Source: Burkholderiaceae bacterium (lineage in GTDB: Bacteria > Pseudomonadota > Gammaproteobacteria > Burkholderiales > Burkholderiaceae_E). From it: a stretch of DNA of 54,495 nt. The stretch is taken from assembly GCA_021463505.1 (NCBI GenBank), contig JAJTYR010000024.1, positions 1 through 54,495 of the forward strand. Direction: 5' to 3'. The notes below the pieces were generated by a model. It saw nothing but the letters and a program-made list of their open reading frames with translations, searched no databases and was not told where the DNA came from. Shown here piece after piece: positions 2,387 to 23,545 of the stretch; the stretch's first letter is position 1, and each line of letters starts with the position of its first letter. Position numbers and translations under genes: made by a program.

Positions 2387-3195
2387 GCGCATCGACAGCT
2401 TCGTCGCCGCCCGGGGCCACCCTGGCCGAACTGGTGCCCGACTGGGACGCACCACCGCAGGTCAGGGCGTTCGTCACCGGGCGCCATGGCGGAACCAGCG
2501 CAGGCCCCTGGGGACTCGCCGACGGCAGTCGTGGCGGACTGAACCTGGGCATGCGTTGCGGCGACGATGCACGCGACGTCGCGCGCAACCGTGCGCGGCT
2601 CGGGGCGTGCCTGCCGTCGCCGCCGCACTGGCTCGAACAGGTGCACGGCGCAGCCGTGCACGTGGCGGCCGCGCACCGGTCCGGCACGGTGATCGAACCG
2701 CGCGCCGATGCCGCCGCGACCGCCACGCCCGGCGTGGTGCTGGCGGTGCTGAGCGCCGACTGTCTGCCGGTGCTGCTGACCGATACCGGTGGCAAGGCGG
2801 TGGCCGTGGCGCACGCGGGATGGCGCGGGCTGGCACTGGGTGTGCTCGAGCGCAGCGTCGAGGCGTTGCATGGCCTGGCCGGTCCGGGCGCGCAGGTGAT
2901 CGCGTGGCTGGGGCCGGCGATCGGGCCGCGTGCATTCGAGGTCGGTGAAGACGTCCTGCGCGCATTCTGCGACACGGACCGGCGATGCGCCGCCGCGTTC
3001 GTGCCCGGCGTGCGTGACGGCAAGTGGTTCGCCGATCTGTACCACCTGGCGCGGATCTGCCTCGCACGCGTCGACGTGCATCAGGTCGGCGGCGGCGGGC
3101 ACTGCACCGTCGGGGACCCCGGGCGCTTCTATTCGCATCGGCGTGATCGGGGTGGCGGGCGCATGGCCTCGCTGATCTGGCTCGACCCGGCTTGA
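2383..3195 (+). CDS. pgeF: PgeF/YfiH family peptidoglycan editing factor (multicopper polyphenol oxidase family)
   Basis: This belongs to the YfiH/PgeF (DUF152, laccase-domain) family. Members hydrolyse wrongly built UDP-MurNAc-L-Ser, and some act as purine nucleoside phosphorylases or deaminases. The zinc-ligand pattern is visible: His in WLEQVHGAAVH, Cys in LSADCLPVLL and His in VAHAGWRG, plus the C-terminal FYSHRRDR segment. A TTG at 2383 overlaps the rluD stop (TTGA) and gives 270 residues. The in-frame GTG at 2434, just before PDWDAP, matches the family's typical N-terminus and may be the real start. It lies between rluD and phaC, as in many Burkholderiales. Confidence 0.9.
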   Translation: MSASTASSPPGATLAELVPDWDAPPQVRAFVTGRHGGTSAGPWGLADGSRGGLNLGMRCGDDARDVARNRARLGACLPSPPHWLEQVHGAAVHVAAAHRSGTVIEPRADAAATATPGVVLAVLSADCLPVLLTDTGGKAVAVAHAGWRGLALGVLERSVEALHGLAGPGAQVIAWLGPAIGPRAFEVGEDVLRAFCDTDRRCAAAFVPGVRDGKWFADLYHLARICLARVDVHQVGGGGHCTVGDPGRFYSHRRDRGGGRMASLIWLDPA

Positions 3196-3247
3196 ACGCC
3201 TCTGCGCGTCGACCTTGCCGGAGACTCTGCGCTTTCGCTGCACTGCG

Positions 3248-3275
3248 TTGACAAAATCGTTTCGCGGTGCAGAAT
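3248..3275 (+). promoter_or_regulatory. Predicted sigma-70 promoter of phaC
   Basis: A perfect TTGACA (3248-3253) is followed by a 16-base spacer and CAGAAT (3270-3275). Transcription would start near 3282, giving a leader of about 30 bases with a GGAGA ribosome binding site before the phaC ATG. The -35 overlaps a TGC-rich stretch (GCTGCACTGCG). PhaR proteins are known to bind TGC-rich repeats, so autoregulation by PhaR is possible, but this is inference. Confidence 0.6.
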
Positions 3276-3313
3276 GACCCCGGAAGATCGGCAGAATCGA
3301 AGCGGAGACAAGG

Positions 3314-5194
3314 ATGCCGGACGCATCGCGAAGGAAGACCGTCGCAGGTTCGCGGCGCCGCAGCACGAAGGCGTCGATTCCCCACGCCCTCGCGACGCCG
3401 ATGCCTGAGTCGCCGGCCGGGGGGTCGGCGCCTGGCAAGCCGATCGCCGGATCGGGGATCCGGACGACTGCGAAGGCGGTCGCCAGGAGCGCCAGAAAGC
3501 CCGCTGCGAAGCCGGCGGCCAGGCCGACCGCCAGACCAGCCGGCAAGCCCGCGGCCAGGCCGGCTGGCAAGCCCGCCGACAAGCCGACTGCCAAGCCTGC
3601 GGCCAGGCCGAGCGGCGCGCCGGCACCTGCGGCGCCGGTGCATCTGTCGGGCGAAAGACTCGGGCAGATCCAGGCCGAATACCTGCAGCGACTGGGTGCC
3701 TTGCTGCGTGGCGCGTCGCTTCCGGAGTCTCGCGACCGCCGCTTCGCCGGCGATGCGTGGAAGCAGGGGCCGTTTGCGTGGGCGGCCGGGCTCTATCAGC
3801 TCAATGCCGAGTTCATGCACAAGCTCGCCGATGCGGTCGAAGGCGAGCGGCAGGTGCGCAACCGGATCCGCTTCGCCACCCAGCAGTGGGTCGATGCGAT
3901 GTCTCCGGCGAATTTCCTCGCCACCAACCCGGAGGCCCAGCAGCGGCTCGTGGATACGCGTGGCGAGAGTCTTCGATCGGGCATGCGCAACCTGCTTGGC
4001 GATCTGAACAAGGGACGCATCTCGCAGACCGACGAGAGCGCCTTCGAGGTCGGGGTCAATGTGGCGACCTCGCCGGGATCGGTCGTCTATCAGAACGCGC
4101 TGATCCAGATCATCCAGTACGCGCCGTCCACACCGACGGTGGGCAGCCGGCCGCTGCTGATGGTGCCGCCGTGCATCAACAAGTTCTACATCCTCGACCT
4201 GCAGCCCGGGAATTCGCTGGTCGCCTACGCGGTGGCGCAGGGCCACACGGTGTTCATGGTGTCGTGGCGCAACGTCAAGGCCGATCTCGGGCACCTCACC
4301 TGGGACGACTACATCGAGACCGGCGTGATCGAAGCGATACGCGTGGTACGCGAGATCACGGCGCAGCCGCGTATCAACGTGCTCGGGTTCTGCGTCGGCG
4401 GCACACTGCTCGGCACCGCGGCCGCGGTGCTCGCGGCGCGCGGCGAGCCGTGGATCGAATCGCTGACGCTGCTCACCACCTTCCTCGATTTTTCCGAACC
4501 CGGCGTGCTCGGCGTGTTCATCGACGAGAACTTCGTCGCCTACCGCGAGTCGACCATCGGACGCGGCGGCCTGGTCCACGGGCGCGAACTGGCGGTGACC
4601 TTCAATTTCCTGCGTCCCAACGACCTGGTCTGGAACTACGTCGTCAGCAACTACCTGAAGGGCGAGCCGCCGCCGGCGTTCGACCTGCTGTACTGGAACG
4701 CCGACAGCACCAACCTGCCGGGGCCGATGTACAGCTGGTACCTGCGCCACACCTACCTGCAGAACGAGCTGCGCGAGCCCGGCCGGCTGATCTGCTGCGG
4801 CGTGCCGGTGGATCTCGGCGAGATCGGCGTGCCGGCCTACATCTACGGTTCGCGCGAAGACCACATCGTGCCGTGGATCGGCGCCTACGAATCGACGAAG
4901 CTGTTGTCGGGGCCGTTGCGCTTCGTTCTCGGCGCGAGCGGGCACATCGCCGGTGTCATCAATCCGGCGGCAAAGGGCAAGCGCAGCCACTGGATCGGCA
5001 GCGGGCTGCCCGAGCGCGCCGACGACTGGCTGGCGGCAGCCACCGAGTACCCGGGAAGCTGGTGGCCCGACTGGGCGAAGTGGCTGGCCGGTTTCGCCGG
5101 CGAGCGCAGCCCTGCGCCGAAGCAACCCGGTGACGCGCGTCACCGGCCGCTCGAACCCGCCCCCGGCAGTTACGTGAAGGAGAAGGCCGACTAG
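3314..5194 (+). CDS. phaC: Class I poly(3-hydroxyalkanoate) synthase PhaC with a KPA-repeat N-terminal tail
   Basis: PhaC polymerises (R)-3-hydroxyacyl-CoA into PHA at the surface of granules. The 626-residue protein has the alpha/beta-hydrolase lipase-like box GFCVGGT with nucleophile Cys360, Asp516 (REDHIVPW) and His544 (GASGHIAG). Their spacing is very close to that of the Cupriavidus enzyme (Cys319, Asp480, His508). The extra length is at the N-terminus: about 100 basic, low-complexity residues, with tandem KPAARP/GKPAAK-type units at residues 61-99. Such tails are not usual for class I synthases and resemble the AlgP/PhaF/PhaM type of DNA-binding tail. The ATG at 3314 has a good ribosome binding site (GGAGA). 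phaB follows after 102 bases; no thiolase gene (phaA) lies between them. Confidence 0.96.
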   Translation: MPDASRRKTVAGSRRRSTKASIPHALATPMPESPAGGSAPGKPIAGSGIRTTAKAVARSARKPAAKPAARPTARPAGKPAARPAGKPADKPTAKPAARPSGAPAPAAPVHLSGERLGQIQAEYLQRLGALLRGASLPESRDRRFAGDAWKQGPFAWAAGLYQLNAEFMHKLADAVEGERQVRNRIRFATQQWVDAMSPANFLATNPEAQQRLVDTRGESLRSGMRNLLGDLNKGRISQTDESAFEVGVNVATSPGSVVYQNALIQIIQYAPSTPTVGSRPLLMVPPCINKFYILDLQPGNSLVAYAVAQGHTVFMVSWRNVKADLGHLTWDDYIETGVIEAIRVVREITAQPRINVLGFCVGGTLLGTAAAVLAARGEPWIESLTLLTTFLDFSEPGVLGVFIDENFVAYRESTIGRGGLVHGRELAVTFNFLRPNDLVWNYVVSNYLKGEPPPAFDLLYWNADSTNLPGPMYSWYLRHTYLQNELREPGRLICCGVPVDLGEIGVPAYIYGSREDHIVPWIGAYESTKLLSGPLRFVLGASGHIAGVINPAAKGKRSHWIGSGLPERADDWLAAATEYPGSWWPDWAKWLAGFAGERSPAPKQPGDARHRPLEPAPGSYVKEKAD

Positions 5195-9319: not shown

Positions 9320-10173
9320 GGCGCAGTCGGCAACTGGTCGACGAACCAGTTCAGGATTGCATCGAGCCCGCAGTGGTTGATCGCGTGGGTGGTCTCCGAG
9401 CGCACGATCGGCCTGGCGCGGTAGGCCACCGAGACGCCGGCGATCGACATCATCTGCAGGTCGTTGGCGCCGTCGCCGACGACGATCGCCTGCGCCGGCG
9501 TGCAACCGATCGCCGCGCAGGTCTCCTCGACCGTGCGTCGCTTGACGCTGGCGTTGACGATCTCGCCGAGCACGCGCCCGGTGAGTCGGCCGCCGGCGGT
9601 CTCGAGCGTGTTCGAGCGCGTGAAGTCCAGGTGCAGGCGTGCGGCCAGCCGCTCGGTGAAGAACCGGAAACCACCCGAAACCAGCAGGATCTTCAGGCCC
9701 GCCGCGCGTGCCGCGACGATCAGCGCCTCGGCGCCGGGCGACAGCCGCACGCGCTCGTCGTAGACGCGCTGCAACGCCGATTCGGGCAGGTCGGCGAGCA
9801 GCGCCACGCGCCGGCGCAGACTCTCGTCGTAGTCGGGAATCTCGCCACGCATCGCCGCCTCGGTGATCGCCGCCACCTCGGCCTTGCGGCCCGCGAAGTC
9901 GGCGAGTTCGTCGATGCACTCGATCGTGATCAGCGTCGAGTCCATGTCGAAGGCGATCAGCCGGTAATCGGACAAGCGTGTCGCCAGCGGCACGATTTCG
10001 GCATCGACGCCAACGGCATCGGCGATCTCGCCGACCTGATCGCCGTCGATGGTCACCGGCTCCCAGGTGGCGAGCTGGGGCAGGTGCAGCGTGGGCGCGC
10101 GTCCGAGGGCAGCGCGGAACGCGTCGACCGCGGCTTCGCAGAGCTGCGGGTGCTGGACCACCAGCCGGCTCAT
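9316..10173 (-). CDS. serB: Phosphoserine phosphatase
   Basis: SerB removes phosphate from O-phospho-L-serine, the last step of serine synthesis. It is a HAD-superfamily enzyme of 285 residues. The nucleophile motif is FDMDSTLITIECIDELA (first Asp attacks, second Asp is the acid). The Ser of motif II is in LVSGGFRFF, and VVGDGANDLQMM is the motif III/IV Mg-binding region. An N-terminal region of about 75 residues (ACT-like) precedes the HAD core. The gene lies 55 bases after mfd on the same strand, and its stop overlaps the MFS start. Confidence 0.95.
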   Translation of the reverse strand: MSRLVVQHPQLCEAAVDAFRAALGRAPTLHLPQLATWEPVTIDGDQVGEIADAVGVDAEIVPLATRLSDYRLIAFDMDSTLITIECIDELADFAGRKAEVAAITEAAMRGEIPDYDESLRRRVALLADLPESALQRVYDERVRLSPGAEALIVAARAAGLKILLVSGGFRFFTERLAARLHLDFTRSNTLETAGGRLTGRVLGEIVNASVKRRTVEETCAAIGCTPAQAIVVGDGANDLQMMSIAGVSVAYRARPIVRSETTHAINHCGLDAILNWFVDQLPTAP

Positions 10174-16620: not shown

Positions 16621-16653
16621 CCGCCGGGGCGAAGGCGCCCCGGCGGCGTTTCC
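16621..16653 (+). terminator. Rho-independent terminator after the TrpB2 gene
   Basis: An 11-bp GC-rich stem (16621-16631 with 16636-16646) closes an AAGG tetraloop. It is followed by a moderately T-rich tail (CGTTTCCTT). It separates the TrpB2 gene from the E1 operon. Confidence 0.7.
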
Positions 16654-16765: not shown

Positions 16766-17773
16766 ATGGGCGACCGCAACGCATCGCTGCTCTGGATGTA
16801 CGAGAAGATGGTGGAGATCCGCCACTACGAAGAGACGATGGCCGCCGTCTATCTCGAGGGCAAGCTGCCGCCCAAGATCCAGAAGGGACTCGCGTTCGAC
16901 ATCGGCTCCGGGCCGGTTCCTGGCGAAATGCATCTCGCGGCTGGCCAGGAGCCGGTGGCAGTGGGGGTCTGCGCGCACCTGAAGAAGGAGGACACGGTGG
17001 TCGGCACACATCGGCCGCACCATTTCGCGATCGCCAAGGGCGTCCCGCTCGACCGCATGACCGCCGAGATGTTCGGCAAGGCCGCCGGCCTGGGCAAGGG
17101 CAAGGGCGGGCACATGCACCTGTTCGACCCGGAACACCGGTTCAGCTGCAGCGGCATCATTGGTGCGAGCCTGCCGCCGGCGTGCGGCGCGGCGCTGGCT
17201 GCGAAGAAGCTGGGCCGTGACTGGGTGGCGGTGGCATTTTTCGGCGAGGGTGCGGCCAATCAGGGGTCGTTCCACGAATCGCTGAACCTCGCGGCGCTGT
17301 GGAAGCTGCCGGTGCTGTTCGTCTGCGAAGACAATTACTGGGCGATCTCGGTGCCCAAGCCGCAGGCGACCTCGATCCCGAAGGTGTCCGATCGCGCGGC
17401 GGCCTACGGCATGCCGGGCGTGCACGTGCCGAACAACGATGCGGTCGAGGTGTGGGAGGCGGCGGGTGCGGCGATCGCGCGTGCGCGTCGCGGCGAGGGG
17501 CCAACGCTGCTCGAGGTGCGCACCGACCGCTACCTGGGGCACTTCCAGGGTGACGCCGAGGTCTATCGACCGAAGGACGAGGTCGCGAAGCTGCGCGCCA
17601 ACGATCCGATTCCACGGCTGGCCGCGCAGTTGAAGGCGCAGGGCCTGCTCGACGACGAACAGCGCGGCAGACTCGAGGCGCGCACCCGCACCCGCGTCGA
17701 CGAGGCCTACGCGTTCGCGCGCCGCGCCGGGTACCCGGCACCGGCCGACGCGCTGGCCGATCTGTTCGTCTGA
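16766..17773 (+). CDS. 2-oxoacid dehydrogenase-type E1 component, alpha subunit (AcoA/PdhA-like)
   Basis: This is a thiamine-diphosphate-dependent E1 alpha subunit of 335 residues, like those of acetoin, pyruvate or branched-chain 2-oxoacid dehydrogenases. Visible elements are IRHYEETMAAVY, GEMHLAAGQEPVAVGV, THRPHHFAIAKG, GKGKGGHMHLFD and the ThDP motif FFGEGAANQGSFHESLN. The first metal-binding residue of that motif is Glu, where most relatives have Asp (GDG). There is also a roughly 12-residue insertion before the GQEP segment. The ATG at 16766 has a strong AGGAGGGGAG ribosome binding site. E1 beta follows after 28 bases. The substrate cannot be read from sequence. Confidence 0.9.
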   Translation: MGDRNASLLWMYEKMVEIRHYEETMAAVYLEGKLPPKIQKGLAFDIGSGPVPGEMHLAAGQEPVAVGVCAHLKKEDTVVGTHRPHHFAIAKGVPLDRMTAEMFGKAAGLGKGKGGHMHLFDPEHRFSCSGIIGASLPPACGAALAAKKLGRDWVAVAFFGEGAANQGSFHESLNLAALWKLPVLFVCEDNYWAISVPKPQATSIPKVSDRAAAYGMPGVHVPNNDAVEVWEAAGAAIARARRGEGPTLLEVRTDRYLGHFQGDAEVYRPKDEVAKLRANDPIPRLAAQLKAQGLLDDEQRGRLEARTRTRVDEAYAFARRAGYPAPADALADLFV

Positions 17774-17801
17774 GCTTGCGACAACGAGAAGGAGGCCGAC
17801 C

Positions 17802-18842
17802 ATGAGCGAATCCCGTTCACTGACGATGGCCCAGGCGATCGCCGAGGCGATTGCGCAGGAGATGGAGCGCGATCCCGCGGTGTTCGTGATGGGCGAGGAT
17901 ATTGGCCGCTACGGCGGTATCTTCGGCGCCACCGGCGGCCTGCTCGAGAAATTCGGCCCCGAGCGCATCATGGATACGCCAATCTCCGAGACCGCGTTCA
18001 TCGGCGCGGCAACCGGTGCCGCCGCGACCGGCATGCGGCCAATCGCCGAACTGATGTTCGTCGATTTCTTCGGCGTGTGCATGGACCAGATCTACAACCA
18101 TCTCGCGAAGAACACCTACATGGCAGGGGGCAACCTGCGTCTGCCGGTGGTCTTGATGACCGCGATCGGCGGGGGCTACAACGACGCGGCGCAGCACTCT
18201 CAGTGCCTGTTCGGCACTTTCGCGCACATGCCCGGACTGAAGGTGGTGGTGCCGTCGAATGCCTACGACGCGAAGGGCCTGATGATCCAGTCGATCCGCG
18301 ACGACAACCCGGTGATGTTCATGTTCCACAAGGGGATCATGGGACTGCCGTGGATGGCCCACTTCGAGGGCAGCACCAACGAGGTGCCGCGCGAGGCGTA
18401 CACGGTGCCATTCGGTCAGGCGCGCACGGTGCGCGAAGGCGCCGACCTGACCATCGTCACGTTGAGCCAGATGGTGCACAAGGCGGCGCTGGCAGCCGTG
18501 GAACTCGGGCGTGAAGGGGTGAGTGCCGAGGTGATCGACCTGCGCACGCTGGTGCCGCTCGACCGCAAGGCGGTGCTGAAATCGGTCGCGAAGACCGGCC
18601 GGCTGCTGGTGGTCGACGAGGATTACCTGAGCTTCGGCCTGAGCGGGGAGATCGCCGCGATCGTCGCCGAGAACCTCGACACGGTGCGGCTGCGTGCGCC
18701 CGTGAGGCGACTCGCGGTGCCCGACGTGCCGATTCCCTACAGTCGCCCGCTCGAACAATTCGTGATTCCGCAGGTCGAGTCGATCGTCGGGGCTGCTCGT
18801 GCACTGTGCCGCGCGCCGCTTGTCCAGGCGATGCCGGCGTGA
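17802..18842 (+). CDS. 2-oxoacid dehydrogenase-type E1 component, beta subunit (AcoB/PdhB-like)
   Basis: This is the partner of the preceding E1 alpha (346 residues). The N-terminal transketolase-like pyrimidine-binding domain has VFVMGEDIGRYGG and the catalytic Glu region DTPISETAFIGAATGAA. The C-terminal domain has VIDLRTLVPLDRKAVLKSV and LVVDEDYLSFGLSGEI. DVPIPYSRPLE near the C-terminus is shared with acetoin and pyruvate E1 beta chains. A GAAGGAGG ribosome binding site precedes the ATG. The stop overlaps the GTG start of the lipoyl-domain gene (GTGA), so the two are translationally coupled. Confidence 0.92.
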   Translation: MSESRSLTMAQAIAEAIAQEMERDPAVFVMGEDIGRYGGIFGATGGLLEKFGPERIMDTPISETAFIGAATGAAATGMRPIAELMFVDFFGVCMDQIYNHLAKNTYMAGGNLRLPVVLMTAIGGGYNDAAQHSQCLFGTFAHMPGLKVVVPSNAYDAKGLMIQSIRDDNPVMFMFHKGIMGLPWMAHFEGSTNEVPREAYTVPFGQARTVREGADLTIVTLSQMVHKAALAAVELGREGVSAEVIDLRTLVPLDRKAVLKSVAKTGRLLVVDEDYLSFGLSGEIAAIVAENLDTVRLRAPVRRLAVPDVPIPYSRPLEQFVIPQVESIVGAARALCRAPLVQAMPA

Positions 18843-19090
18843 GCGCCATCACGCTGGACGACGCGGTCTGGACAGACGTCGAGGAGGGCACCGAGGCGCT
18901 GGTCGATCGCTGGCTGGTCGCCGAGCACGCGACGGTGCACGCTGGCCAGCCGGTGGCGTCCGTGGTGCTGGTCAAGACCACGATCGATGTGCCCGCGCCG
19001 GCTGATGGGGTGCTCGAACGCATTCTCGTCGGCGCCGGCGAGACCTTTGCACGCGGCGTGCCGATCGGCACGCTGCGCGACGCCGGCTGA
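18839..19090 (+). CDS. Free-standing lipoyl/biotinyl-attachment domain protein
   Basis: The whole 83-residue protein is one lipoyl-like hammerhead domain. It has an N-terminal strand (DAVWTDVEEGTEALV), the modification hairpin VLVKTTIDVPAPADG with acceptor Lys46, and the second half ERILVGAGETFARG. The pattern fits E2-type lipoyl domains (ETDKA..V.AP..G) rather than the longer GcvH fold. There is no linker, peripheral-subunit-binding domain or acyltransferase domain. The GTG start overlaps the E1 beta stop, and the next gene, a lipoate-ligase homologue, begins on the base after its stop. The context makes it the acyl carrier for the upstream E1. Biotin instead of lipoate cannot be excluded. 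Confidence 0.85.
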   Translation: MSAITLDDAVWTDVEEGTEALVDRWLVAEHATVHAGQPVASVVLVKTTIDVPAPADGVLERILVGAGETFARGVPIGTLRDAG

Positions 19091-19810
19091 ATGCAGGTCG
19101 AGGCGGCGGTCGCCGACGAGCACGCCTGGGTTGCGAGCATCCTCGACACCGACATCCGCGACGCGGTGTGGCGCGTCTGGCTCTATCCGGCGGCCGAGAT
19201 CGTGCTCGGCTGCTCGCAACGCGCGCTGCTGGCCGAAGTGGTACGGCGTGCCCCTGCCGGCATGCCGGTCACGGTTCGGCCTTCCGGGGGCGGAGCAGTG
19301 CTCGCAGGACCGTGGATGATCGGCGCCAGCATCGTCGTGCCACCCGACCATCGGTTGCTCGCCGGTGGACTGGTTGCCAGCTATCGCTGGCTGGGCGAAC
19401 TGCATGCGCAGGTGATGTGCAAGGCCGGCGTCGACGCGCGTACGGTGGTGCCGCAACGCCGGTCGCTGCCGCCCGGGCCGCTGCGGGACGCGCCGCGGCA
19501 GGCGGCCGCCGGGGAAATCAGCTGGGCCTGCTTCGGTTCGCTGTCGCCCTGGGAAGTGACCGATGCGGCGGGCCGCAAACTCACCGGGCTGGCGCAGCAA
19601 CGCCGGCGCGGTGGCGTCGCCTTCTCGGCCGGGACGCTGATCGCGCGGCCCGACTGGCGATGGCTGTGCGAAGCGCTGGGCGCACCCGACGACGCGACGT
19701 CACTGGATCGATTCACCGGGGCCTGCAACGAAGCGTCCGGTGTGGCGGCGCTCGATGCGCGTGGGTGGGCCGAGCGGATCGACCGGGCACTCGGGGCCGC
19801 ACTCGGCTGA
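19091..19810 (+). CDS. Lipoate-protein ligase A family protein
   Basis: This 239-residue protein belongs to the LplA/LipB/BirA fold. It has the lipoyl-binding loop RPSGGGAVLAGPWMIG (residues 63-78). The conserved ligase lysine appears as Lys163 in AAGRKLTGLAQQRRRGG, followed by GVAFSAGTLI. It lacks the C-terminal accessory domain of E. coli LplA, so it may be a transferase or half of a bipartite ligase. The ATG directly abuts the lipoyl gene stop. It most likely modifies that domain specifically; this is inferred from adjacency. The gene converges on an aminotransferase gene 46 bases away. Confidence 0.85.
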   Translation: MQVEAAVADEHAWVASILDTDIRDAVWRVWLYPAAEIVLGCSQRALLAEVVRRAPAGMPVTVRPSGGGAVLAGPWMIGASIVVPPDHRLLAGGLVASYRWLGELHAQVMCKAGVDARTVVPQRRSLPPGPLRDAPRQAAAGEISWACFGSLSPWEVTDAAGRKLTGLAQQRRRGGVAFSAGTLIARPDWRWLCEALGAPDDATSLDRFTGACNEASGVAALDARGWAERIDRALGAALG

Positions 19811-21036: not shown

Positions 21037-21621
21037 TCAGTCGAGATCGGCCACCAGGGCGTCGCGCACCGCGACCGGCAGCGGATTCGCCTCGGCGCGG
21101 TAGTTCTCGTGATCGACACCGACCGACAGCGCCGCGCCACGCGCCAGCGCGTCGGCCATGTCGTCGGTGAGCTCGAACCGCACGAAGTGTACCGCCGAAG
21201 TCTTCTCCTCGTTCTCGCGCTCGAGATCCTCGTCGGCGATCGCGTACACGCGCGGCGCCCCCTCCACCTGCACCCAGAGCCGGTCTTCCACGCCGCGCAG
21301 GCGCGCCAGTTCGCGACGCCGGACGTCGACGTCGTCGTACTCGATCAGCATCGTCGCCTTGAGGTTGCGGCCGTCGGGGATCAGCGGATTGTAGGCCTCG
21401 AGTTCGTGCTCGATGCCCTGCTCCTCGAAGATCTTCTCGATGCGCAACATCTCCTGGATCTGGTAGCGCACGGTCAGTTCGTCCTCGAACAGCAGCGTGA
21501 CGTGCCCGCCCAGCGCCACGCTGCGGTTCTTCTTGTGCTCCATCACCTTGTGCCGGAACTCGGGCCGCGCCTTCGCGTAGGCCTCGAGTGTCATCAGCGA
21601 CTCACGGCTCACTTTCGCCAT
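21037..21621 (-). CDS. DUF3501 family protein
   Basis: This 194-residue cytoplasmic protein belongs to the DUF3501 family, recognised from its N-terminus (SLMTLEAYAKARPEFRHKVM) and from GGHVTLLFEDELTVRYQIQEM. It has no signal sequence, membrane segment or cysteine-rich motif. Its function is unknown. In many bacteria it accompanies rubrerythrin and an Hdr-like Fe-S protein, as here, which suggests a redox or peroxide-stress role. The start lies 16 bases after the Hdr-like gene stop. Confidence 0.88.
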   Translation of the reverse strand: MAKVSRESLMTLEAYAKARPEFRHKVMEHKKNRSVALGGHVTLLFEDELTVRYQIQEMLRIEKIFEEQGIEHELEAYNPLIPDGRNLKATMLIEYDDVDVRRRELARLRGVEDRLWVQVEGAPRVYAIADEDLERENEEKTSAVHFVRFELTDDMADALARGAALSVGVDHENYRAEANPLPVAVRDALVADLD

Positions 21622-21637
21622 TTCCGTTGCTTCCCTG

Positions 21638-22996
21638 TCAACGATTCAATCCGTACGCGATCCGCAGCAGCGTAAGCGGATGCGCGAGCTTGCCCGCCGT
21701 TGCCCGCCCGGCCTCGGTCATTCCCTGCTCGATGTGGTGCCCGGCGAGCTGGCAGTCGGAGGCGATCCAGTCGGGCTCGCCGTCGGGGTGCTCGCCCATC
21801 TGGCGGAACACCGGCTTGCCGATCTTCATCGCGATCTCGTGGAATTCCTTCTTCACGCCCCAGGTGCCGGCGTGCCCCGAGCAGCGCTCGATCGTGTTCA
21901 GGCTCGTGCCCGGCACCATCTGCAGCATCTCGCGCGTCTTCTGGCCGACGTTCTGCACCCGCAGGTGGCAGGCGACGTGATAGGAGACCTTGCCCAGCGC
22001 GGTGCCGAAGTCGGTCTTCAGCAAGCCGTCCTTCGCGCGCAGCACGAAGTATTCGAACGGGTCGAACATCGCGTCCTGCACCGCCCTCACGTCCGCGTCG
22101 TCCGGGTACAGCATCGGCAGTTCCTGCTTGAACATCAGTGCGCACGACGGAATCGGGGCGAGGATCGCGTAGCCGGCGCGCGCGAGCTTCGCCAGTGCCG
22201 GTATGTTCCGTTCCTTCAGCGTGTGCACCGACTCGAGGTCGCCGAGTTCGAGCTTCGGCATCCCGCAACAGGCTTCCTTCTCGGCGAGCACGTAGGGGAT
22301 CGCGTTGTGCTCAAGCACGCGGGCCAGGTCGTGGCCGATGCCGGGTTCGTTGTAGTTGACGTAGCAGGTGGCGTAGATCGCCACCTTGCCGGGGGTGCGC
22401 TCGCCGTCGCGCACCGGATGCGCCTTCGACGGCACGACGTATGAACGGAACCGGTCGCTGGTGAACGGCGGCAGCCAGGCGTCACGGTGCACGCCGATGG
22501 CCTTCTCGCCGAGCCTGCGCGCGGTCTTGTTGCGCGCCAGCGCATTGACCGCCTGGACCACGACCGGGATGCCGGCGAGCGTGCCGTTGCGGTCGGTCGA
22601 CGACAGCTGCACGTCGCGAAATCGCGTCGGCGTGCCCTGGCGGAACTGGATCGCCTTGCCGCGCAACATCAGGTGCGGGAAATCGACGTTCCAGGTGTGC
22701 GGCGGCACGTACGGGCACTTCGTCATGAAGCACAGGTCGCACAGGTAGCACTGGTCGACCACCTTCCAGTAATCCTTGCGGTCGACGCCGTCGACCTCGC
22801 CGCTGGCGGACTCGTCGACCAGGTCGAACAGGGTCGGGAAGGCGTTGCACAGGCTCAGGCAGCGCCTGCAGCCGTGGCAGATGTCGAACACGCGCTGCAT
22901 TTCGTCGAGCGCCTTCGTCTGGTCGTGGAACTCGGGATTCTTCCAGTCGAGCGGGTGACGGGTAGGGGCTTCGAGCGAACCTTCACGTGCGGTCAT
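21638..22996 (-). CDS. Heterodisulfide-reductase-like iron-sulfur protein (CCG domains)
   Basis: This 452-residue protein has two N-terminal 4Fe-4S motifs (CHGCRRCLSLCNAFP and CYLCDLCFMTKCPY). Two CCG-type domains follow (ATCYVNYNEPGIG...EKEACCGMPKLE, and YHVACHLRVQNVG...IERCSGHAGTWG). That layout matches the HdrD/GlpC family of soluble electron-transfer subunits. Its partner could be rubrerythrin or a flavoprotein, so the reaction is unknown. A rho-independent terminator lies between it and the upstream rubrerythrin gene, which would lower its expression relative to rubrerythrin. DUF3501 follows directly. Confidence 0.88.
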   Translation of the reverse strand: MTAREGSLEAPTRHPLDWKNPEFHDQTKALDEMQRVFDICHGCRRCLSLCNAFPTLFDLVDESASGEVDGVDRKDYWKVVDQCYLCDLCFMTKCPYVPPHTWNVDFPHLMLRGKAIQFRQGTPTRFRDVQLSSTDRNGTLAGIPVVVQAVNALARNKTARRLGEKAIGVHRDAWLPPFTSDRFRSYVVPSKAHPVRDGERTPGKVAIYATCYVNYNEPGIGHDLARVLEHNAIPYVLAEKEACCGMPKLELGDLESVHTLKERNIPALAKLARAGYAILAPIPSCALMFKQELPMLYPDDADVRAVQDAMFDPFEYFVLRAKDGLLKTDFGTALGKVSYHVACHLRVQNVGQKTREMLQMVPGTSLNTIERCSGHAGTWGVKKEFHEIAMKIGKPVFRQMGEHPDGEPDWIASDCQLAGHHIEQGMTEAGRATAGKLAHPLTLLRIAYGLNR

Positions 22997-23042
22997 CGTC
23001 GTTCCCGGCAGGTGTCCGGCGCGCAGCGCGCCGGCGTGAATG

Positions 23043-23073
23043 AAAAGGGGAGCTCCTGGATGCGGAGCTCCCC
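23043..23073 (-). terminator. Terminator between rubrerythrin and the Hdr-like gene
   Basis: Perfect 10-bp arms, GGGGAGCTCC (23047-23056) and GGAGCTCCCC (23064-23073), flank a 7-base loop. Read on the minus strand, the hairpin is followed by TTTT. Transcription from the rubrerythrin promoter would mostly stop here, with the downstream genes reached by read-through. Confidence 0.8.
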
Positions 23074-23125
23074 TCGCGTTGCGCGAGCCGATCGGCCGGG
23101 CCTGCGGTCGATCGGCCAGCGCGGT

Positions 23126-23545
23126 TCAGGCCAGCGATTCGAGGGCCTTGGCGAACTTGTTCGCGTGCGAGCGCTCGGCCTTGGCCAGGGTTTCGAACCA
23201 GTCGGCGATTTCGTCGAAGCCTTCCTCGCGGGCGGTCCTGGCCATGCCCGGGTACATGTCGGTGTACTCGTGCGTCTCGCCGGCGACCGCCGACTTCAGG
23301 TTGGCCTGCGAGTTGCCGATCGGCAGGTCGGTCGCCGGATCGCCCACTTCGGCCAGATAGTCGAGGTGGCCGTGCGCGTGGCCGGTCTCGCCTTCCGCGG
23401 TCGAACGGAACAGCGCGGCGACTTCCGGCTGACCCTCGACGTCGGCCTTGTTCGCGAAGTACAGGTAGCGGCGATTCGCCTGGCTCTCGCCGGCGAACGC
23501 GTCCTTCAGGTTCTGGTGGGTTTTCGTGCTCTTCAGGCTGGGCAT
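23126..23545 (-). CDS. Rubrerythrin (ferritin-like diiron protein, no rubredoxin domain)
   Basis: Rubrerythrins reduce hydrogen peroxide at a diiron site. The 139-residue protein is a four-helix ferritin-like domain. The Glu-rich iron-binding segments are visible: [49 protein letters not shown] and [14 protein letters not shown]. The C-terminal rubredoxin domain of classic rubrerythrin is absent, so an external electron donor is needed; the Hdr-like Fe-S protein downstream is a candidate. The ATG at 23545 follows an AAGGAG ribosome binding site. A longer in-frame start upstream is rejected because it lacks such a site. Confidence 0.93.

Follow-up and report, generated by a model that had tools for sequence, protein, structure and literature searches.

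The DNA stretch analysed here (the window) is 54,495 nucleotides of a Burkholderiaceae genome, and our subject is a row of four forward-strand genes encoding an E1 enzyme, a free-standing lipoyl domain protein, and an LplA-fold protein. The E1 alpha gene (E1a, 335 amino acids, AcoA-like) lies at 16766..17773 (Pfam E1_dh, 1.4e-75), and the E1 beta gene (E1b, 346 amino acids, AcoB-like) follows at 17802..18842 (Transket_pyr, 8.1e-42; Transketolase_C, 1.4e-34). The lipoyl protein gene (LIP, 83 amino acids) starts with GTG and spans 18839..19090 (Biotin_lipoyl, 1e-9), with the codon of its acceptor Lys46, read from the sequence, at 18974..18976. The last gene (LPL, 239 amino acids, LplA/LipM fold) occupies 19091..19810 (LplA-B_cat, 5.2e-10). 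E1b and LIP share a 4-base GTGA overlap, and zero bases separate LIP from LPL. The first-pass annotation had described a tightly coupled row of these four genes, with a complete E1, a lipoyl domain with acceptor Lys46, and no E2 or E3; its coordinates and junctions are exact, the Pfam matches agree with its gene assignments, and neither an E2 nor an E3 gene was found within the window.

E1a has GEG...N, which we take to be the thiamine diphosphate motif, and a GHFQGD loop close to the GHFEGD of AcoA. E1b has a QHSQ motif that presumably holds the catalytic histidine. A GC-rich, terminator-like hairpin lies 3' of the upstream TrpB-like gene (16621..16646, forward strand), identified by a pattern match with 11 G-C pairs; the scanned region held four such sites versus 1.4 expected. 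Its position between the TrpB-like gene and E1a suggests that E1a begins its own transcription unit.

Gene order was conserved in relatives, where the set had been proposed to be sought, and since the same order recurs the arrangement is no chance. We scanned an E1a alignment (window plus genome G153) against 84,980 species and kept the best 80 of 204 stretches. Eight of the 80 loci were left unclassified, with contig ends less than 1 kb from LIP or with E1b or LIP incomplete. A gene for a 2-oxoacid dehydrogenase catalytic domain (2-oxoacid_dh, hereafter E2c) followed LIP in 22 of the 72 classifiable relatives and was absent from 50 (E2-less loci), a split that is no natural frequency because the loci were chosen by similarity to the window's E1a; across an even sample of the order, 3 of 300 genomes (the window's own included) carry this E1a at 1e-90. 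Genera with E2c included Azoarcus, Pseudogulbenkiania, Cupriavidus, Ralstonia, Rugamonas, Comamonas, Hydrogenophaga, Polaromonas, and Limnohabitans, among others. LPL lay behind E2c in 21 of 22 loci, the remaining one being cut by a contig end, and accompanied 37 of the 50 E2-less loci (absent from 13).

The acyltransferase of this fuller operon has about 225–245 residues and carries the motif DHR[AG][VI]DG in 21 of 22 loci; the exception is truncated where its contig ends. E2c of locus L119 matched PF00198 only. In L102 and L116, LIP and E2c share one reading frame, and the L102 fusion matched PF00364 and PF00198; the scanned E2c proteins thus contain no subunit-binding domain. From these comparisons, the four genes of the window are best described as a shortened form of the operon E1a-E1b-LIP-E2c-LPL, in which the lipoyl and acyltransferase parts of the predicted E2 are already separate, the one a free protein and the other a bare domain. 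The earlier view that the set stands apart from a normal complex is not supported, since in relatives the position directly between LIP and LPL is taken by an intact E2 acyltransferase gene. At locus L086, an E2 fragment and an E3 match lie about 1.8 kb upstream of E1a.

Plasmids also carried the operon and extend the family beyond Burkholderiales, with 18 records containing an E1a relative and E2c present in 9 of the 11 records examined. E1a-E1b-LIP-E2c is followed by an annotated lipoate ligase in Phaeobacter, by a hypothetical protein in Paracoccus, Roseibium, and Mameliella (the gene table of the last has no E1b, which was located as two pieces), and by lipA in Rhodococcus. The same four genes occur, with LPL not annotated, on a Sphingomonas plasmid and in Natrialba and two Halobaculum records. 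Two Haladaptatus records have E1a-E1b-LIP without E2c in the plasmid region. No E3 gene was found in the operons of five plasmid records examined.

To place the absence of E2c, we searched whole genomes with a profile built from 11 E2c sequences. The search covered 51 genomes: four controls with E2c and 47 E2-less genomes, the latter comprising the window's genome (G000), G126, G153, those of 43 of the 50 E2-less loci (all except L058, L060, L066, L071, L078, L084, and L120), and that of the unclassified locus L075. Controls scored 377–404 bits, and the 47 E2-less genomes, including the window's, scored at most 203 bits. Most matches in E2-less genomes were in frames of at least 300 residues, as expected of canonical E2s; short frames of 171–267 residues in G000, G566, G567, G589, G593, and G601 scored 137–166 bits, and G586 and G591 had no match at 1e-30. 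An orphan E2c was therefore not found by this profile in the 47 E2-less genomes, and an E2 of the same subfamily acting in trans was rejected for these assemblies.

The distribution of E2c across the E1 tree suggests that the operon once included this gene, which then disappeared repeatedly while the other genes stayed. The tree was built from concatenated E1 proteins with 89 tips, leaving out the eight unclassified loci, L041 (broken E1a), and L174 (E1b in two pieces). Presence and absence of E2c required 5 parsimony changes, compared with a mean of 24.8 for shuffled labels. Node support was 0.999 for the Haladaptatus pair, 0.78 for a clade of E2-less loci with AcoX (the AcoX clade), and 0.09 for the 39-tip clade containing the window; because of the last two values, the number of losses is uncertain and "about five" is a loose figure. 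Loss rather than gain would be the direction of change, since E2c occurs in alpha-proteobacteria, Rhodococcus, and haloarchaea.

Genes that remain in E2-less operons appear to be under selection. Ratios of nonsynonymous to synonymous substitution (dN/dS, Nei-Gojobori) were calculated for 22 sequences in five E2-less groups and 12 sequences in three E2c groups. Values in the E2-less groups were 0.03–0.13 for the E1 subunits and 0.09–0.35 for LIP, compared with 0.01–0.11 and 0.06–0.25 in the E2c groups. These ratios indicate purifying selection on LIP with and without E2c, perhaps slightly less strict without it. Together with a lysine at the acceptor site in all 86 LIP sequences counted, the low dN/dS argues that the E2-less module is functional. 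The count of 86 omits the LIP-like protein of locus L045 and five plasmid LIPs that tblastn missed (L164, L165, L168, L173, and L174). The L045 protein (9403-9639) has histidine at the position of the acceptor lysine.

LIP itself resembles the lipoyl domains of E2 proteins. Its AlphaFold model has a mean predicted local distance difference test (pLDDT) score of 94.6, with Lys46 in the turn that joins strand 38-44 to strand 47-52, and the protein has no subunit-binding domain. The LIP profile matched AceF lipoyl domains at 1.9e-21 versus 8.6e-5 for GcvH, which bears out the earlier statement that the carrier is distinct from GcvH, and GcvH was absent among the 50 Foldseek matches listed for the model. 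Sequence and fold both rank E2 lipoyl domains first, with biotinyl domains close behind and GcvH far, and a clean distinction between lipoyl and biotinyl domains is given by neither the sequence profile nor the fold taken singly. Biotinylated domains carry the motif AMKM. The acceptor site in LIP rows is [VI]-K-[TSA], and biotin in place of lipoate on Lys46, an outcome that the first pass had named as damaging to its proposal, was rejected because no MKM motif occurs in the aligned sequences. LIP followed E1b in all 77 loci with enough sequence past E1b, always with the lysine. A search of the class matched the profile in 11 of 369 genomes; beyond the window and G049, these were only weak matches (31–35 bits) in frames of 332–650 residues.

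The function of LPL is less clearly indicated. Its model (pLDDT 91.4) matched LplA-fold structures in Foldseek, the best being 2p0l (8.5e-13) and Thermoplasma LplA (2art, 2.2e-11), with about 14–16% identity, which makes it too distant in sequence to be called a ligase or a transferase. LPL matches only LplA-B_cat over its 239 amino acids, so the accessory C-terminal (LplB) domain is absent, and no LplB-type neighbour gene was recognised beside it. Cys147, Lys163, and the motif core (R63 with G66-G68) are invariant across all 30 aligned rows. Where the LplA motif is RRx[TS]GGG...HD, the window has VRPSGGGAVLAG, with the first R and the HD missing. Cys147, in an ACF motif, sits at what we take to be the position of the LipM nucleophile, and for this reason octanoyl or lipoyl transfer would be as likely as ATP-dependent ligation. 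In NCBIfam, the window's LPL had no match, and the L119 homologue matched LplA-type models weakly. The LplA-fold assignment within the earlier designation of a dedicated lipoate ligase stands, while ligase activity is a prediction from the fold only.

LPL and LIP are not strictly coupled. LPL occurred without E1 or LIP of this family alongside in 5 of 8 LPL-bearing genomes from a 200-genome sample of the order (in G083 it lies divergently beside a BCKDH operon), and E1 and LIP occurred without LPL detected alongside in 13 of the 72 classifiable relatives. Rhodococcus carries lipA in the LPL slot, and the window's genome has LipB beside LipA on contig C47. The argument that a private ligase shows LIP to lie outside the LipB/LipA route is accordingly weak.

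Other E2 and E3 genes in the window's genome (3.58 Mb, 97.7% complete, 120 contigs) could serve LIP in trans. The only LIP match in this genome was the window's own, and PF00198 acyltransferase matches were limited to three: SucB adjoining an E3-like frame on contig C8, an E2 of BCKDH type that comes after its own E1 pair on C57, and, on C44, a truncated E2 with an acyl carrier protein (ACP)-like frame behind it. Half a lipoyl domain beside an AceE-like frame at the end of C34 suggests that this contig holds the pyruvate dehydrogenase (PDH) E2, cut by the contig end. E3-like frames, identified by reading the sequence rather than by profile, lie on C8 beside SucB and on C55 with a lipoyl domain, and an E3 is thus predicted to be available in the cell. 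An E2/E3 pair elsewhere had been named as evidence that would count against the original proposal; no dedicated E2 was found in the assembly, but other E2s and E3-like frames are present.

The C44 fragment was considered as a lost E2c and rejected, as it is 29–38% identical to E2c and scores 137.9 bits versus 377–404 for true members. It is the 3' part of another E2, and the end of contig C88 holds E1b and the start of a lipoyl domain in the same layout. Across C88 1-4301 (L049), C44 1-914 (L048), and L045 3740-8904, we observed genes for an AMP-ligase, E1a, E1b, E2, and an ACP-like protein, which seem to form one cluster, of 2-oxoacid dehydrogenase type with its own acyl carrier protein. Contig C39 (about 3014-5108, L193) contains a second E1 alpha/beta pair with no adjacent lipoyl or E2 gene and with an asparaginase-like gene following on the opposite strand; E1a matches that score like this pair occur in many genomes of the family.

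Comparison with paralogous E1 pairs points to an acetoin-type enzyme. The pairs compared were AcoA/AcoB of L080, L118, and L121, the C88, L045, and C39 pairs, and BCKDH, with the Aco references known from genes alone. Canonical AcoA/AcoB were the best match for both subunits, with 41–43% identity for E1a and 48–50% for E1b. Scores were 234–251 bits for AcoA and 278–305 for AcoB, compared with 219 and 254 for the next pair (C88 being next-best for E1a) and 93–96 and 211–225 for BCKDH. A GHF[EQ]GD loop in E1a and an ELMF-DF-GVC-DQIYN stretch in E1b are shared with AcoA/AcoB. Three relatives carry a canonical system as well: in L080 and L121, an AcoX-AcoA-AcoB set divergently adjoins the E1a-E1b-LIP-LPL set (AcoC was identified in L080), and in L118 an AcoA/AcoB pair lies about 4 kb from it. 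In all three, the E1a-E1b-LIP-LPL set has its own AcoX and AcoR-like genes, so that two paralogous acetoin-type systems stand side by side.

Gene neighbourhoods of many relatives fit the same function. An AcoR-like sigma-54 activator lies near 19 of the 22 E2c loci and a GMC oxidoreductase near 18, and in the AcoX clade (11 E2-less loci), AcoR is near nine and AcoX near nine. AcoC, searched at 1e-60 in 41 genomes, was present in 6 of 8 AcoX-clade genomes, 0 of 29 other E2-less genomes, and 0 of 4 E2c genomes. The AcoX clade is thus a possible precedent for replacement of E2 in trans by AcoC, and AcoC as a general substitute for E2c was rejected because it occurs only in that clade, which is not the window's.

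Given these patterns, we tentatively favour, with confidence just short of even, an acetoin-dehydrogenase-type system that lacks E2c, whose E2 was split beforehand, and whose LIP is served in trans by a housekeeping E2 and E3. The AcoAB-like E1 would cleave acetoin or a similar alpha-hydroxyketone, or else a 2-oxoacid, and would reductively acylate the lipoyl group on Lys46 of LIP. An acyltransferase of a housekeeping complex would then pass the acyl group from free LIP to coenzyme A (CoA), and a housekeeping E3 would re-oxidise the dihydrolipoyl arm. Acyl transfer by the E2 of another complex is possible because LIP is a free protein, and loss of E2c would be a small further step since fuller operons already use an outside E3 and an untethered lipoyl protein. 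A dedicated E2c would thereby have become dispensable and been lost several times, and LPL would help to octanoylate or lipoylate LIP without being essential. The parts of this scheme that we infer are the substrate class, the acylation of LIP, the identity of the acceptor as a housekeeping E2, what LPL does, and that E2c was lost rather than gained.

Several observations weigh against this explanation. The lead of AcoA over the next paralogue is small for E1a, E1b scores above the cut-off of the NCBIfam pyruvate dehydrogenase E1 beta model (NF006667, 340 versus 321 bits), E1a matches PDH E1 alpha models below cut-off, and the best solved structures for E1 are PDH E1. The partner E2 for the window's lineage was not identified: AcoC was found neither in the window's genome nor in 28 other E2-less genomes, and nothing ties LIP to SucB, BkdB, or AceF, each of which ordinarily works with lipoyl domains tethered to it. 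We found no biochemistry for any member of the operon family. No AcoR, AcoX, or GMC gene was found near the 39 E2-less loci outside the AcoX clade, 24 of which have at least 5 kb on both sides, and because of this the function may have moved away from acetoin in the window's lineage. That E2c and the catabolic context are both missing there is the strongest hint of a shifted function.

A shifted function could mean that LIP hands acyl groups or reducing equivalents to an acceptor other than CoA, such as a protein, a thiol peroxidase, or a biosynthetic enzyme, with E1 and LIP forming a carrier pathway of their own. We regard this as unlikely, yet it would account for the repeated absence of E2c while E1 and LIP keep low dN/dS, the missing AcoR, AcoX, and GMC neighbours, and the failure to find AcoC or an orphan E2c. 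AhpD partners a lipoyl protein in Mycobacterium, and three plasmid records have AhpD-family genes in the vicinity of the operon, yet those records keep E2c. These carboxymuconolactone decarboxylase (AhpD-like) genes are on alpha-proteobacterial plasmids (L164 15827-16165, L167 13202-13771, and L174 15053-15394). Against such an acceptor, LIP is like E2 lipoyl domains rather than GcvH, and no neighbour gene common to the E2-less lineage was found in the flanks, with no genome-wide co-occurrence screen made. A more specific version, in which E1 and LIP of the window's lineage have left both acetoin catabolism and CoA acyltransfer and a diffusible LIP carries acyl groups or electrons to the non-CoA acceptor, seems to us slightly less likely still.

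Neighbours of E2-less loci vary by genus. HlyD/FtsX-type exporter genes flank 16 of the 39 E2-less loci outside the AcoX clade (L065, L069, L070, L072, L073, L082, L085, L086, L089, L092, L093, L095, L098, L101, L115, and L120) and 0 of 22 E2c loci. We rejected the exporter as a conserved neighbour, since the genomes are related and the gene families differ, and the association may reflect shared ancestry. In the window, genes for DUF3501, a GlpC-like cysteine-rich protein, and rubrerythrin lie together at 21037-23545, as they also do at L039, L040, and L054-L058; the trio did not appear in the roughly 2 kb that follow LPL in G651 (L190).

The remaining alternatives are less likely. E1 might act as a thiamine-dependent lyase or carboligase that makes or splits acyloins with no acyl transfer, LIP being only an electron acceptor. 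AcoAB-type E1 acts on acyloins, and the C39 pair in the same genome lacks an adjacent lipoyl or E2 gene; the presence of LIP in all 77 loci with enough sequence, always with its lysine, makes this option quite improbable. Decay, in which the operon drifts to pseudogenes after loss of E2c, would fit three observations: this E1a was found in 5 of 10 sampled genomes of the genus, so that half lack it, E1a of G126 contains a stop, and G102 and G179 keep LPL with E1 and LIP gone. In these two genomes, no significant E1 or LIP remnant was found between the TrpB-like gene and LPL, and the gap, read by eye, seems to be occupied by a small acetyltransferase-like frame. The low dN/dS that E1 and LIP show where E2c is absent, the lysine in 86 of 86 LIPs, and the retention of LIP without E2c in 50 of 72 relatives from many genera make decay very unlikely. 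A dedicated E2 on DNA missing from the assembly, conceivable in a genome at 97.7% completeness on 120 contigs with several E2 genes running off contig ends, is the least credible explanation, as 46 further E2-less genomes also lack one, including that of Curvibacter sp. PAE-UM, which is essentially one 3.6 Mb scaffold.

The operon family shares components with several known systems and matches none of them fully. Like the acetoin dehydrogenase system (AcoABC with E3, AcoX, and AcoR), it has an E1 nearest to AcoA/AcoB among the pairs compared and AcoR-like and AcoX-like genes near many relatives. Unlike that system, the window's operon has no AcoC, a lipoyl and alpha/beta-hydrolase protein (NF011457) that was not found in the genome either, and the acyltransferase of the fuller form is PF00198, mostly as its own gene, with none in the window. 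PDH, BCKDH, and OGDH complexes share the E1 alpha/beta fold, the E2-type lipoyl domain, and, with the fuller form, the PF00198 acyltransferase. They differ from this family in that its lipoyl domain and acyltransferase are mostly separate proteins (the window having the lipoyl domain only, without E2c), with no subunit-binding domain in those scanned and no E3 in the operons examined. LipM/LipL transferases and bipartite LplA resemble LPL in the catalytic-domain-only LplA fold, the conserved lysine, and the cysteine in an ACF motif, and are far from it in sequence (about 14–16% identity in the best Foldseek matches).

The sHdr system, with LbpA and sLpl(AB), also pairs a free lipoyl protein with an adjacent LplA-fold enzyme. 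One paper describes LbpA as GcvH-like, together with sLpl(AB) and bipartite ligases (PMC10332631); LIP differs in matching E2 lipoyl domains better than GcvH. No Hdr-like subunit set and no LipS1/S2 were recognised near the window's operon, where a single GlpC-like CCG protein is nearby. Haloarchaeal plasmids carry E1a-E1b-LIP with or without E2c, and Haloferax volcanii oadhAB2/oadhAB3 are candidate kin of this operon family. According to PMC8305020, these proteins are 40–54% identical to AcoAB, pyruvate and 2-oxoglutarate were excluded as substrates, and the substrate was not found. In other studies, Haloferax OADHC-1 is required for isoleucine (PMC3235422), a class of single-domain lipoyl proteins is named for archaea (PMC3904984), and acoX is typical of acetoin clusters, with unknown function (PMC3543383). 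No description of an E1a-E1b-LIP(-E2c)-LPL operon was found in the open literature, and because subscription papers lie largely outside it, novelty is unproven.

These results bear on how lipoyl-dependent enzymes are organised. Dehydrogenases for 2-oxoacids and acetoin are tethered machines, in which the lipoyl arm swings within one E2 particle. The operon family, present in bacteria and haloarchaea, has the lipoyl arm as a free protein and the acyltransferase as a bare domain, and several lineages are without the acyltransferase while E1 and the carrier remain under selection. If the unlikely case of a non-CoA acceptor were true, oxidative dehydrogenase complexes, glycine cleavage, and sHdr sulfur oxidation would be joined by a fourth type of lipoyl-dependent pathway in the window's lineage. 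The family makes directly testable whether a free lipoyl carrier can work with an acyltransferase that belongs to another complex or instead feeds something else, and it may help explain E1 pairs without a known substrate, such as those of Haloferax volcanii.

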